Shown here one piece after another: positions 30,921 to 35,889 of a stretch of DNA of 64,000 nucleotides; the stretch's first letter is position 1; every line of letters starts with the position of its first letter. Both the position numbers and the translations under genes were made by a program. The notes under the pieces were generated by a model. That model worked only from the letters and a program-made list of their open reading frames with translations, did not search any database and was not told the DNA's origin. Source of the stretch: Woeseiaceae bacterium (GTDB taxonomy: Bacteria > Pseudomonadota > Gammaproteobacteria > Steroidobacterales > Woeseiaceae); contig JABDOQ010000017.1 of the NCBI GenBank assembly GCA_013043165.1, forward strand, positions 1 to 64,000, given 5' to 3'.

Positions 30921-31127
30921 ATGAGCGAGGAGCGTTTTATCGATCTTGAGAGCCGGCTGGCTCATCAGGACCAGCTGCTGAACGATCTCAATGATGTAGT
31001 GACCGGACAGCAGGCGAAAATCATGCAACTGGATGAGCTCTGCAAATCATTGACCGCCCGAATTCGCTCGCTGTCAGACGCCATTCCGGCGGCTGATTCG
31101 GCGGACGAAAAGCCGCCGCATTATTGA
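30921..31127 (+). CDS. slyX: SlyX-like protein
   Basis: This 68-aa coiled-coil protein (RFIDLESRLAHQDQLLNDLN) ends KPPHY, the SlyX hallmark. The role is unknown. ATG 30921 follows GGGGAAGCGC. It diverges from uup and precedes the giant membrane-protein gene by 71 nt. Confidence 0.92.
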   Translation: MSEERFIDLESRLAHQDQLLNDLNDVVTGQQAKIMQLDELCKSLTARIRSLSDAIPAADSADEKPPHY

Positions 31128-31140
31128 TCTCTAACCCCGA

Positions 31141-31168
31141 TTCCATGGAGCTTGCGTTGGCGTATAGT
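31141..31168 (+). promoter_or_regulatory. Possible promoter of the giant membrane-protein operon
   Basis: TATAGT (31163-31168) follows TTCCAT (31141-31146) with a 16-bp spacer, about 30 nt before ATG 31199. The -10 is good and the -35 is poor. It is the only candidate in the gap after slyX. Confidence 0.35.
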
Positions 31169-31198
31169 GTTGTTACAGCTGCGCCGGAGAAAAACCTT

Positions 31199-34100
31199 AT
31201 GAAGTCGATGCCAAGGCTGTTTGCACTAACCCTGCTATTCATGATGGCTGCCACCGCGGCCCAGGACTATGTACCGGCAGATCTGCAGGACTGGCAAGAA
31301 TGGGTTCTGAAGGACAAGGAATACCGCGACTGTCCTTTTTATTTTAATCGTAACGCCGCCGAGCGCCAGGATTTTGTATGTTCCTGGCCCGGGCAGCTCA
31401 CGCTGTCGGTCGCAGAGTCGGGCGCGGAGTTTACCCAGCAGTGGACCGTATACGCAGAGGAGCAGTGGCTCTCGTTACCCGGCAGCGTGGACTACTGGCC
31501 CGAAGCGGTTACGGTCAACGATCAGTCCGTTGAGGTTATTGCACAGAATAATGTTCCGAGTGTGCGGCTCGCGCCGGGTACCTATCGCGTTGCAGGTCGC
31601 TTCGGGTGGGACGAGCGTCCGGGAGTACTTCGTTTGCCCCCTGAGAGCGGACTTGTCGCACTTGACGTCGATGGCCGCAAGGTCGAGCGACCCGAATTCG
31701 ATCGCAATGGCATTTTTCTTGGCGAACGCAAACTTGATACACGCGTCGTCAATTCGGTTCGTGCCGAAGTACACCGGCTGGTCGTGGATGACGTGCCCAC
31801 GCGGCTCATAACGCAACTGCAGATCGACGTATCCGGCAGCGTGCGCGAAGAGCTGTTTGGCCCGATTCTTCCGGACGGTTTCGTGCCATTGAACATTCAC
31901 AGTCCGCTGCCCGCCAAGCTCGAAGCCGACGGCAACCTGCGGTTCCAGGTTCGGCCAGGTCGCTGGACGATCTACCTGAATGCTCGCGGGCCCGGCGCCG
32001 TGAACAGCATCGTAAGGCAGGGCGCGGGCACGAACCTGCCGGCGTCGGAAATCTGGAGCTACCAGTCAAACGACCGATTGCGCGTGAGCGTGGCCGAAGG
32101 CTTGCCACCAGTCGATCCACGGCAAGTGCAGGTACCTGGAAACTGGCAGAATTTTCCGGCCTTTCGTGTCGATCCGGGTGCCACATTTGCGATCACCGAG
32201 CGCAGTCGCGGCGTCGTGTCGGCGACGAATGAGCTGTCTCTCGCACGGACTCTCTGGCTGGATTTCGACGGCGGCGGCTTCGTGGTCAAGGACAGCGTCG
32301 GCGGGCGCATGCGCACGGATTGGCGGCTGGATATGGGGCCACCGTATACCCTGCTGAGCGCGACTGAAAATGCGCGCGATCTGCTTATCACCAAAGGTCG
32401 GAGTGAGGGCCAAACCGGTGTTGAGCTGCGGCAAACCAACGTTAGCCTCGCCGCGCTGGGGCGCATGAACGCGCGTGGGTCGATGCCCGTTACGGGCTGG
32501 GAGACGCGTTTCACTGACGTACGGGCGACGCTGAATTTGCCGCCGGGCAACAAGCTCCTCGTCGCGCCCGGCGTTGATAGCGCTCGGGGGAGCTGGTTGA
32601 GTGAGTGGCAGTTACTCGATTTTTTCCTGGTGCTGATTATCACGATCGCGGTTTGGCGCCTGATCGGCCGAGGCCCCGGAATTATTGCGGTGCTGGCGCT
32701 CGTGCTCAGTTTTCACGAGCCTTATGCACCAAGCTGGCTGTGGGTGAACCTGCTGATTGCCATCGCGCTGATGCGTGTCGCACCGGCCGGTCGCTTGCGT
32801 CAGATCGTTTCCGGCTACCAGCTGCTCAGTGCCGTGGCCCTCGTCATCGCCCTGGTTCCTTTTGTCGCGAACCAGCTGCGCATTGCCATTTATCCGCAGC
32901 TCGAGCCGCAATACAACCAGTACCAGTTGTACGAGCCCACGGTAATGCCCACGTCCGAACCGGCCGAACAGATGATGCCGGCCCGGGAAAGCAAGGCCAT
33001 TGAGCGAAGAACCGAGGCATTCAAGGCCGACGGAGACGCGCTGCAGGAGATCGTCGTTACGGGCTCGAAAGCCGTTGATTTTGTGCGCTATGCGCCGAAT
33101 GCGATCGTTCAGGCCGGACCCGGCATTCCCTCGTGGCAGTGGAATACCTATGCGCTGGGCTGGAGCGGCCCGGTCGATGCTGAGCAGACTATGCGTCTCG
33201 TTGTGTTACCGCGCTGGCTGGTCAGTGCGCTGCGCGTCTTGGAAGTTGCATTGTTATTGCTGTTCGCCGCGGTGCTCGCCGCCGAAATACTAAACAAGCG
33301 CTGGGCATTGCCGGGCGGATTCGCATTGGGAAGGAACCGGGCTGTCGGCGTCCTGGCCGTTGCGATGCTGGCGACGACGATGCCGCTCAGCCCAACTGCC
33401 GAGGCACAAATGCCGGACGCGAACCTGTTGAAGCAGCTGGAACAACGCCTGACCGAACCGCCCGACTGTGTGCCGCGCTGCGCGGAGATCGTATCTGCCG
33501 ATGTTGCCGTCGGCGCCGATGCCATCAACATGCGCCTGGGCATTCACGCCATGGCAGATATCGCGCTGCCGCTGCCAGGTTCCGCCGATGGCTGGCAGCC
33601 TCAGTCCGTCTTGCTCGACGGCACGGCTAATGCACGCGTCCTTCGCAGCGGCGATAGTTCCCTGTGGCTGCACGTCGGGGCCGGACGCCACTCAGTGACG
33701 CTGCGTGGACCCATTCGGGCCGTCGACAGCCTTGAGCTTGCATTTCAGTCGCCACCCCGCGTGATCACAGTTGATAGCGACGGCTGGTTTGTTGCCGGCA
33801 TCAAGGACCGCCGGCTCCTGTCCGGATCATTGCAGCTTACGCGCCTGCAGACTGATGCGGGTGGCGATGAAACCGTCCGTTGGGAAAGTAGCCGCTTTCC
33901 GGCATTCGCGCGAGTCGAACGAACCGTCGAACTCGATCTCGACTGGCGCGTCAGGACAACCGTCTATCGCGTGGCGCCGATGCAAGGCGGATTGACGCTG
34001 GATGTGCCCCTGATTGACGGCGAAAAAATTATCAGCGGCGAATTTACGGTCGAAAATAACCGGGTTCTCGTGTCGATGAGTCCACAACAACAATCGATCA

Positions 34101-35269
34101 GCTGGACATCGAATCTGCCGCGCACGTCGCCGTTGACCCTGACCGCCGAAGACGGCGCAGCCTGGAACGAGGTTTGGCGCTTCGCGGTCGGCAATATCTG
34201 GAATGCCGGGTTCGAAGGCGTGCCTGAAAGTGATACCGGTGGCGACGTCAGCGAAATCCGTGTCGCCGAATTCAACCCCAGGGGTGGCGAACAATTGACG
34301 CTGGTCGCCACACGACCCGAAGCCGCTGAGGGCTCGACCCTCGCGTTCGATTCCGTCAACCTCGCGGTTACCCACGGCAGTCGTTCCAGCGACACGACGC
34401 TCCGACTTGGTTATCGCAGCACGCGAGGTGCTCAGCACGTACTGCGCCTGCCGGACGGCGCTGAAGTGACTTCGGTGCAAATCGACGGCCTCTCGCAGTC
34501 GCTGCGCGCGGAGGGCGGCGAGCTGACGTTGCCGATATTGCCGGGCGAGCATGCGATCCAGATCGATTGGCGGCAAAGCGGCGAAATGGGTCTGCGCACA
34601 CTGACACCGGCGGTGGACATCGGAGCGCCGGCCAGCAATATCGAACTGTCTCTTACCAAGCCGCGCGACCGCTGGCTGCTCGGCACCAGCGGACCTCAGC
34701 TGGGCCCCGCGGTGCTGTACTGGTCTGAACTCGCCGTGCTGGTCCTGTTCGCGCTGATTCTTGGCCGCGTTGGACTTGCGCCACTCAGGAGCCGGCACTG
34801 GTTATTGCTGGGCCTGGGATTCAGTACCTTCAGCTGGCCCGTCCTGGGCATAGTCGTGGCCTGGCTGCTGGCCTGCGGCGTACGCGAAAAATGGCAAACC
34901 GATGTGAACTGGTGGCGTTTCAATCTGATCCAGCTCGGGATAGGCGGACTCTCCGTCGTTGCGCTGCTCAGCATCGCTACGGCTCTGCCGCAGGGTCTGC
35001 TCGGTACACCAGACATGCACGTGGCCGGGCACAATTCCTATGGCGACGTTCTGAGCTGGTTTGCCGACAGCAGCGACTCGGCGCTGCCCGTCGCGTCGGT
35101 GTTTTCGGTGCCACTATGGATTTACAAGGCGCTGATCCTGGCCTGGGCTCTGTGGCTTAGCTTTGCGCTGGTGCGCTGGCTGCCGTGGGTGTGGCAGTGC
35201 TTCAGCAGCCAGGGTTACTGGCGCTTCAAAAACAGCGATGCACTTAGAGCTGAAGGCGAGGGACGATAA
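31199..35269 (+). CDS. Giant duplicated inner-membrane protein with TonB-box-like motif
   Basis: The 1,356-aa product has a signal peptide (PRLFALTLLFMMAATAA), a beta-rich periplasmic part to about residue 465, and hydrophobic helices near 470-560 and 673-698. A second signal-like helix at about 714-735 ends PTAEA. A second beta-rich part runs to about 1165, followed by four more helices from about 1171 to 1345. The two beta parts look duplicated: LSLPGS at residues 91-96 matches LPLPGS at 790-795 with similar flanking strands. The soluble segment between the membrane bundles contains LQEIVVTGSKA at 615-625, the form of the TonB box of outer-membrane receptors. I know no characterised homologue. 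ATG 31199 is chosen for the signal peptide. It heads a tight operon with the next three genes. Confidence 0.8.
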   Translation: MKSMPRLFALTLLFMMAATAAQDYVPADLQDWQEWVLKDKEYRDCPFYFNRNAAERQDFVCSWPGQLTLSVAESGAEFTQQWTVYAEEQWLSLPGSVDYWPEAVTVNDQSVEVIAQNNVPSVRLAPGTYRVAGRFGWDERPGVLRLPPESGLVALDVDGRKVERPEFDRNGIFLGERKLDTRVVNSVRAEVHRLVVDDVPTRLITQLQIDVSGSVREELFGPILPDGFVPLNIHSPLPAKLEADGNLRFQVRPGRWTIYLNARGPGAVNSIVRQGAGTNLPASEIWSYQSNDRLRVSVAEGLPPVDPRQVQVPGNWQNFPAFRVDPGATFAITERSRGVVSATNELSLARTLWLDFDGGGFVVKDSVGGRMRTDWRLDMGPPYTLLSATENARDLLITKGRSEGQTGVELRQTNVSLAALGRMNARGSMPVTGWETRFTDVRATLNLPPGNKLLVAPGVDSARGSWLSEWQLLDFFLVLIITIAVWRLIGRGPGIIAVLALVLSFHEPYAPSWLWVNLLIAIALMRVAPAGRLRQIVSGYQLLSAVALVIALVPFVANQLRIAIYPQLEPQYNQYQLYEPTVMPTSEPAEQMMPARESKAIERRTEAFKADGDALQEIVVTGSKAVDFVRYAPNAIVQAGPGIPSWQWNTYALGWSGPVDAEQTMRLVVLPRWLVSALRVLEVALLLLFAAVLAAEILNKRWALPGGFALGRNRAVGVLAVAMLATTMPLSPTAEAQMPDANLLKQLEQRLTEPPDCVPRCAEIVSADVAVGADAINMRLGIHAMADIALPLPGSADGWQPQSVLLDGTANARVLRSGDSSLWLHVGAGRHSVTLRGPIRAVDSLELAFQSPPRVITVDSDGWFVAGIKDRRLLSGSLQLTRLQTDAGGDETVRWESSRFPAFARVERTVELDLDWRVRTTVYRVAPMQGGLTLDVPLIDGEKIISGEFTVENNRVLVSMSPQQQSISWTSNLPRTSPLTLTAEDGAAWNEVWRFAVGNIWNAGFEGVPESDTGGDVSEIRVAEFNPRGGEQLTLVATRPEAAEGSTLAFDSVNLAVTHGSRSSDTTLRLGYRSTRGAQHVLRLPDGAEVTSVQIDGLSQSLRAEGGELTLPILPGEHAIQIDWRQSGEMGLRTLTPAVDIGAPASNIELSLTKPRDRWLLGTSGPQLGPAVLYWSELAVLVLFALILGRVGLAPLRSRHWLLLGLGFSTFSWPVLGIVVAWLLACGVREKWQTDVNWWRFNLIQLGIGGLSVVALLSIATALPQGLLGTPDMHVAGHNSYGDVLSWFADSSDSALPVASVFSVPLWIYKALILAWALWLSFALVRWLPWVWQCFSSQGYWRFKNSDALRAEGEGR

Positions 35270-35271
35270 AC

Positions 35272-35889
35272 ATGTCACGCTTGAGATTGCTCTGGATCGC
35301 CGTGTTCCTCGGGGTACTGATCTGGTCCGGTATTGCGCCCAAGGACTATGTGACCTGGTGCCTCGAGGTTCTTCCGGCCGTGTTGGGCGCTGTCGTTCTT
35401 CTATTCACTCGCAAGCGCTTTCCGCTGACGACGTTGATTTACGTGTTGATATTGATTCACTGCGTGGTCCTGATGGTCGGCGGCCACTACACCTACGCTG
35501 ACGTACCGCTCGGTGAATGGTTCCGTGAAACCTTCGATGGATCACGAAATAACTACGACAAGCTGGGGCATTTCGTACAGGGATTCATTCCGGTGATGAT
35601 TGCGCGCGAGTTAATGGTCCGATTGAGAGTATTTAACTCGGCGGCGTGGCGAAATTTTTATATCGTCTGTTTTTGTCTCGCTTTCAGCGCATTTTACGAA
35701 CTCATCGAGTGGTGGGTCGCACTGTTATCTGACGAAGCGGCCGAGGCATTCCTCGGGACACAAGGGTACGTGTGGGATACCCAGTCCGACATGGGTTGGG
35801 CCTTGTTTGGCGCCGTGCTTGGACTTTTGCTGCTCAGCAAATGGCATGACAGGCAGCTGCGTGAGCAGGGCTTCGTTTCCGCGGCTTGA
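35272..35889 (+). CDS. DUF2238 (YjdF-like) membrane protein
   Basis: The 205-aa product has six predicted helices and the family pattern YDKLGHFVQGFIPVMIARE with FSAFYELIEWWVALL, rich in conserved histidine, glutamate and tryptophan at the membrane face. The function of DUF2238 is unknown. It starts 2 nt after the giant gene and ends 3 nt before the hydrolase, indicating a single operon. Confidence 0.9.
   Translation: MSRLRLLWIAVFLGVLIWSGIAPKDYVTWCLEVLPAVLGAVVLLFTRKRFPLTTLIYVLILIHCVVLMVGGHYTYADVPLGEWFRETFDGSRNNYDKLGHFVQGFIPVMIARELMVRLRVFNSAAWRNFYIVCFCLAFSAFYELIEWWVALLSDEAAEAFLGTQGYVWDTQSDMGWALFGAVLGLLLLSKWHDRQLREQGFVSAA

Follow-up and report, generated by a model that had tools for sequence, protein, structure and literature searches.

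A TonB-box-like motif in a predicted periplasmic loop of a widespread inner-membrane protein of the Woeseiaceae

The motif LQEIVVTGSK lies inside a 1356-residue inner-membrane protein encoded in a window of 64,000 nucleotides from a Woeseiaceae bacterium (the whole stretch of contig JABDOQ010000017.1 that was analysed), and is here read, with a modest preference, as a true TonB box on a protein that is not a receptor. It would dock the C-terminal domain of TonB, and docking or parking is the favoured form of that interaction. To our knowledge, the box-bearing partners of TonB are outer-membrane receptors or imported toxins; among the matches listed from the open-licence literature (titles and starts of abstracts), none describes such a box in an inner-membrane protein native to the cell. 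If the reading is true, TonB has inner-membrane clients or regulators and its partners are not limited to receptors, and there would be a handle on how a few TonB proteins serve dozens of receptors. The motif is, in addition, a first clue to a membrane protein of marine bacteria, about 1350 residues long and widespread, for which no Pfam or NCBIfam family was found.

The open frame spans positions 31124-35269 of the window, and the ATG at 31199 gives the 1356 residues. The features considered are the following:

31199 to 35269, forward strand: gene of the host protein, 1356 residues, with two lobes and about ten membrane segments, of no named family
31199 to 31261, forward strand: apparent signal peptide MKSMPRLFALTLLFMMAATAA, assigned by eye
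31268 to 32614, forward strand: lobe 1 (residues 24-472), soluble, predicted periplasmic (hydropathy profile, hhalign)
32615 to 32881, forward strand: membrane segments 1-4 (about residues 473-561), the first two hardly separated (hydropathy); within them, a K/R-rich loop (residues 529-541), predicted cytoplasmic (hydropathy and charge)
32906 to 33109, forward strand: hypervariable linker with the motif (residues 570-637), predicted periplasmic (alignment, hydropathy)
33041 to 33070, forward strand: TonB-box-like motif LQEIVVTGSK (residues 615-624; translation, matrix, conservation)
33110 to 33232, forward strand: conserved loop end, beginning QAGPGIPSWQWN (residues 638-678; alignment)
33233 to 33400, forward strand: membrane segments 5-6 (about residues 679-734; hydropathy)
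33401 to 34714, forward strand: lobe 2 (residues 735-1172), homologous to lobe 1 (hhalign)
34715 to 35188, forward strand: C-terminal membrane segments (about residues 1173-1330; hydropathy)
35272 to 35889, forward strand: neighbour gene for a DUF2238 membrane protein (YjdF-like), found beside the homologue only in loci of the window's own family

Matches to the protein occur in 55 of 107 genomes of the family, 43 of 196 of the order and 54 of 369 of the class (overlapping sets of examined genomes), and the seven named-genome loci with a homologue are titled Woeseiaceae in six cases and Gammaproteobacteria in one. The window protein itself gives no match in Pfam or NCBIfam; the best Pfam match among 33 homologues is 0.0066, in a single member, and a sequence search with a profile of 33 homologues finds no solved structure at E<=1. 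Both the Plug and the FecR domain are absent from the window protein and from the 33 homologues scanned. Judged by the missing Plug domain and by the internal box (615-624 of 1356, not at the mature N-terminus as in TonB-dependent transporters), the window protein is not a receptor.

Presence of the DUF2238 neighbour was compared over all loci, duplicates among them, in which the sequence continues for 600 bases or more past the gene. A relative of the DUF2238 neighbour is found in 33 of 74 loci overall, 33 of 41 in the family and 0 of 33 elsewhere; as it is limited to the family, the neighbour does not define the function of the protein, and a role common with DUF2238 was dropped. In 16 loci (11 from the class), no conserved neighbours in the wider class were seen by eye, and none of the six TonB_C matches of the genome lies on the contig of the window.

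The sequence-only reading had placed LQEIVVTGSKA at residues 615-625, and positions 33041-33073 do translate so when counted from the ATG at 31199. The motif fits the box consensus of the receptors of the same genome. A DNA pattern for E[IVM][IVM]VT[GA] finds seven sites genome-wide, against two for the reversed pattern: five are followed by a Plug match within 50 bases, one is the window site, and the last (L119) belongs to a frame whose contig has no Plug match and is taken for a chance frame. A ten-column matrix was then derived from 16 receptor TonB boxes of this genome, picked and registered by eye; three of the 19 receptor loci (L132, L137 and L142) had no usable N-terminus and were left out. 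With this matrix, the window motif scores 21.5, and the 16 receptor boxes score 16.7-30.4 against a matrix that contains them.

The linker between YPQLE and QAGPG was scored in 96 non-redundant homologues with 500 shuffles each. These are what remains of 110 loci covering residues 560-740 once 14 sharing an identical 200-residue stretch were removed. In the family they represent 50 of the 55 genomes with a match, the remaining five having only a fragment or a broken copy; the order's other families contribute 18 of 20 genomes, and the class the 28 best-scoring of 52. At p<=0.01 the motif is present in 41 of 50 family members, in half of the homologues contributed by the order's other families (9/18) and in 1 of 28 from the rest of the class, so that the conservation in orthologues on which the sequence-only reading depended holds in the family, half holds in the order and fails beyond it. 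At p<=0.05 the counts are 47/50, 10/18 and 3/28. The best match of the whole protein falls in the linker in 42/50, 9/18 and 2/28, respectively, and the linker makes up 5.4% of the length of the family protein. In the family, the median best score is 18.8 inside the loop and 8.2 outside it, where the highest is 13.3. A chance resemblance may be envisaged, as short degenerate motifs arise randomly and three of the class homologues reach p<=0.05, but it is highly improbable in view of the 41 of 50 family members at p<=0.01 and of the reversed matrix, which reaches a score of 10 in 0 of 50 family loops.

The conservation pattern separates the motif from its surroundings. Of the 41 family members, 40 have E and one has D at the third motif position, and the columns on either side are near random. 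As the 41 were chosen by score, core frequencies and core identity are biased upward, but flank variability is unbiased. Among pairs that are 50-60% alike (450 pairs), the eight-residue core is 0.58 identical, the 24 residues before it 0.10 and the whole protein 0.55; among those 60-70% alike (252 pairs), the values are 0.59, 0.11 and 0.64. Thus core conservation is not above that of the whole protein, and in close pairs it is below it: the ten closest pairs give 0.68 for the core, 0.87 for the whole protein and 0.45 upstream. The conserved E, V, T and G are each coded by several synonymous codons (GAG 21 and GAA 19 at the third position; GTG, GTC, GTT and GTA for V). A core that is kept next to an upstream stretch of about 0.10 identity, with mixed synonymous codons, points to selection on the peptide, and the segment is read as a putative short linear motif under selection, with some play within its consensus, in a flexible linker.

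Against this stands the possibility of an evolutionary leftover, in which the linker once received a copy of a receptor N-terminus that now decays without function. It fits the nine of 50 family members that fall short of p<=0.01, the close pairs in which the core changes more than the whole protein, and the linker text VITREDIDKSG of one homologue (L083), which by eye looks like the beginning of a receptor plug domain, so that part of a receptor might have been incorporated there. It is nevertheless considered improbable, given a core near 0.6 identity beside an upstream linker of about 0.10, the mixed synonymous codons, and a tree made without the linker, on which the motif state requires 15 parsimony changes, some of them threshold effects between clear and degraded forms.

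The chief rival to TonB docking is that the motif forms a conserved short beta-strand for another partner, either a lobe of the protein itself or another periplasmic protein, with no involvement of TonB. This has a substantial, if minority, likelihood. Docking close by would suit the near-fixed distance between the motif and QAGPG within the family (13-17 residues in 39/41); in the order, the distance ranges from 12 to 45 residues in the nine members at p<=0.01, which does not suit rigid packing. The core, moreover, copies the receptor box including its S/A-K/R tail, and its variants in the linkers (VTTG, ITVT, VIVT, VS[GA]) occur in receptor boxes too, which speaks for the TonB box over a strand for another partner.

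The motif-bearing loop, flanked by predicted membrane segments, begins near residue 561 and ends near 679; its length of about 118 residues is close to the roughly 110 between membrane helices given in the sequence-only reading. According to mean hydropathy in the 96 aligned homologues, membrane segments lie near residues 481, 497, 519, 551, 689, 725, 1180, 1211, 1255 and 1316. The short neighbouring loops are rich in K/R (2.9 per homologue in loop 529-541 and 3.5 in loop 699-715, over 96 homologues) and the loop 561-679 is poor (0.4 in its first 12 residues and 1.3 in its last 12), so that by the positive-inside rule, together with hydropathy, it is predicted to be periplasmic. Lobe 1, preceded by an apparent signal peptide, must be periplasmic as well, on the same side as the loop. 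This agrees with the periplasmic position that the sequence-only reading had made a proviso, with one reservation: segments 481 and 497 are barely apart and were counted as two, with RLIGRG between them, and if they are read as one the crossing count flips the loop to the other side, contrary to the charge rule. With six close sequences as input, AlphaFold gives models of mean pLDDT 36.1 and 38.3, too poor to carry weight; the linker has no secondary structure in them, but the model is poor throughout.

The two soluble lobes (residues 24-472 and 735-1172) align over 375 columns at 16% identity, with an hhalign probability of 91% and an E-value of 1.1e-6 for this comparison of two single profiles, and three control pairs of other protein parts give 0.1-0.9%. 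Their homology indicates an internal duplication, with membrane segments after each copy; this family of membrane proteins, widespread and unmatched in Pfam, thus carries duplicated lobes of about 440 residues.

Beyond the order, the motif is nearly absent. The only class homologue of 28 at p<=0.01 (L096) carries it 14 residues before QAGPG; its genome holds 25 Plug domains, and it is placed among relatives without the motif, with weak node support (0.49). The other 27 class homologues miss p<=0.01, yet 21 of the 22 class genomes counted hold at least one Plug domain; the motif is therefore not needed for the basic role of the protein. Plug domains were counted in 47 genomes holding the protein, four of which have at least 80. 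Of 28 genomes with at least 10 Plug domains, 19 have the motif (p<=0.01), versus 0 of 19 with fewer than 10, and the median number of Plug domains is 32 with the motif versus 6 without it (47 genomes, four counted as at least 80). Within the 22 class genomes alone, the number of Plug domains and the motif score are unrelated (rho 0.08, p 0.74), and G625 and G508, with 27 and 13 Plug domains, lack the motif. Ancestry explains much of the association between motif and receptor number which, being seen over 47 genomes and absent within the class, was set aside as evidence.

The sequence-only reading had proposed the protein as a competitor, a regulator or an energy-coupled partner of TonB; conservation among near relatives and the predicted periplasmic loop favour a partnership with TonB, and its near absence from the rest of the class does not. 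In PMC12905483 the TonB box is described as disordered, forming a strand when it folds against the C-terminal domain of TonB. In the mechanism favoured here, the loop would be flexible as well as periplasmic, its box would bind the C-terminal domain of TonB, and TonB would be held near the protein in competition with the many receptors. Since the inner membrane anchors the window protein as well as TonB, pulling would do little work, which favours docking or parking over energised transport; force-driven opening is judged less likely than parking, recruitment or competition.

Several known systems resemble this arrangement in part. TonB-dependent outer-membrane transporters share with it the consensus [LIV][ED]E[IV]xVT[GA][SAT][KR] of this genome's receptors, the predicted compartment and the hypervariable surroundings; they carry the box at the mature N-terminus, whereas that of the window protein lies in an inner-membrane loop, without a Plug match. 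FecR-type anti-sigma regulators are also inner-membrane proteins linked to TonB-dependent receptors. FecR-type regulators bind the signalling domain of the receptor, and are not known to bind TonB by means of a box; the window protein, unlike them, has no FecR match. The accessible parts of PMC11658791 place TonB boxes in all TBDTs and in TonB-dependent colicins, which indicates that a box can work outside a receptor. As presented in the same parts and in those of PMC9022066, TonB-dependent colicins and pyocins are likewise non-receptor proteins with a box; as toxins they are imported, the box being pulled inwards from the exterior, whereas the window protein is a resident of the cell's own membrane. 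Finally, in the MacA2B2 efflux system of Aeromonas hydrophila, TonB affects a machine with inner-membrane parts; there, according to the excerpted text of PMC8082627, TolC has no TonB-box domain and the mechanism is left open.

Box-like text also occurs in other non-receptor proteins. A slightly looser DNA pattern gave 100 sites in six relatives, two of which lie in the linkers of homologues and 98 of which were read by eye. Many of the latter are receptor N-termini and many are chance frames or stretches inside other domains. By eye, L205 looks like an efflux adaptor with the box text inside, and L199 likewise has internal text; such occurrences inside other proteins fit a strand for another partner. 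Three sites (L211, L202 and L191) directly follow an apparent signal peptide and show no receptor text. Similar but looser text after the apparent signal peptide of small secreted non-receptors is again in keeping with a strand for another partner.

The first of the three, L211:94-1101 on the reverse strand, is a divergent TraB/PrgY/GumN protein (PF01963, 6.5e-22) with EALEEIVVTGKLPG right after the apparent signal peptide. TraB/GumN proteins were rejected as general box carriers: there are 31 matches in 26 genomes, and only L211 has the box among those read. Of 24 other TraB/GumN loci read in the right frame, none has a box near the N-terminus and L289 has one loose match near the C-terminus; L288, L294, L300, L302, L303 and L304 stayed outside this reading, another frame having been picked. 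VWA/YfbK proteins, in which TonB-box-like text might be expected, were dropped as box carriers, as the only two found in 22 genomes (L206 and L207) contain no box in their first 260 residues. L191 is a short secreted-looking frame in which a second copy of the box begins (VMEEIVVTATRPAWQRTDFVMEEVV) and is cut by the end of the contig.

L202 (also L306) encodes a 273-residue protein without a Pfam match, and has 13 matches in 26 genomes, none of them in the window's own genome. Six of the matching proteins, L309, L310, L311, L313, L314 and L315 (E 3.9e-9 to 5.2e-5 against L202), have looser, unscored box-like text in the same place (EEIVITGKT, EEIVVIGER, DEIVVQGEK, EEITSYGRK, DEIVVASQK and EEITIVGDR). 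In these small secreted-looking proteins, the box-like text is followed by a conserved FN.LNDD..YDI.C segment, and those scanned (L202, L309, L310, L311 and L314) give no convincing Pfam match. Five further secreted-looking proteins, L307, L312, L316, L317 and L318, have C-termini that match the final 70 residues of L202 (E 9.1e-10 to 2.8e-4), and the N-terminal part of all five is a TonB_C domain (PF03544, E 9.6e-18 to 2.8e-5, above the cut-off). The shared C-terminal domain is a hint that the box-like proteins may be tied to the TonB_C proteins. With this hint in its favour, it may tentatively be proposed, as a doubtful generalisation, that receptor-rich gammaproteobacteria possess resident non-receptor partners (the window protein, the small secreted family and at least one TraB/GumN protein) that would hold, share out or sense TonB. 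Weak TPR matches are seen in the middle of three of the five TonB_C proteins. L308:1027-1947, on the forward strand, encodes a Sel1-repeat protein whose C-terminal part has VDEIIVYGDIS and resembles the small secreted family.
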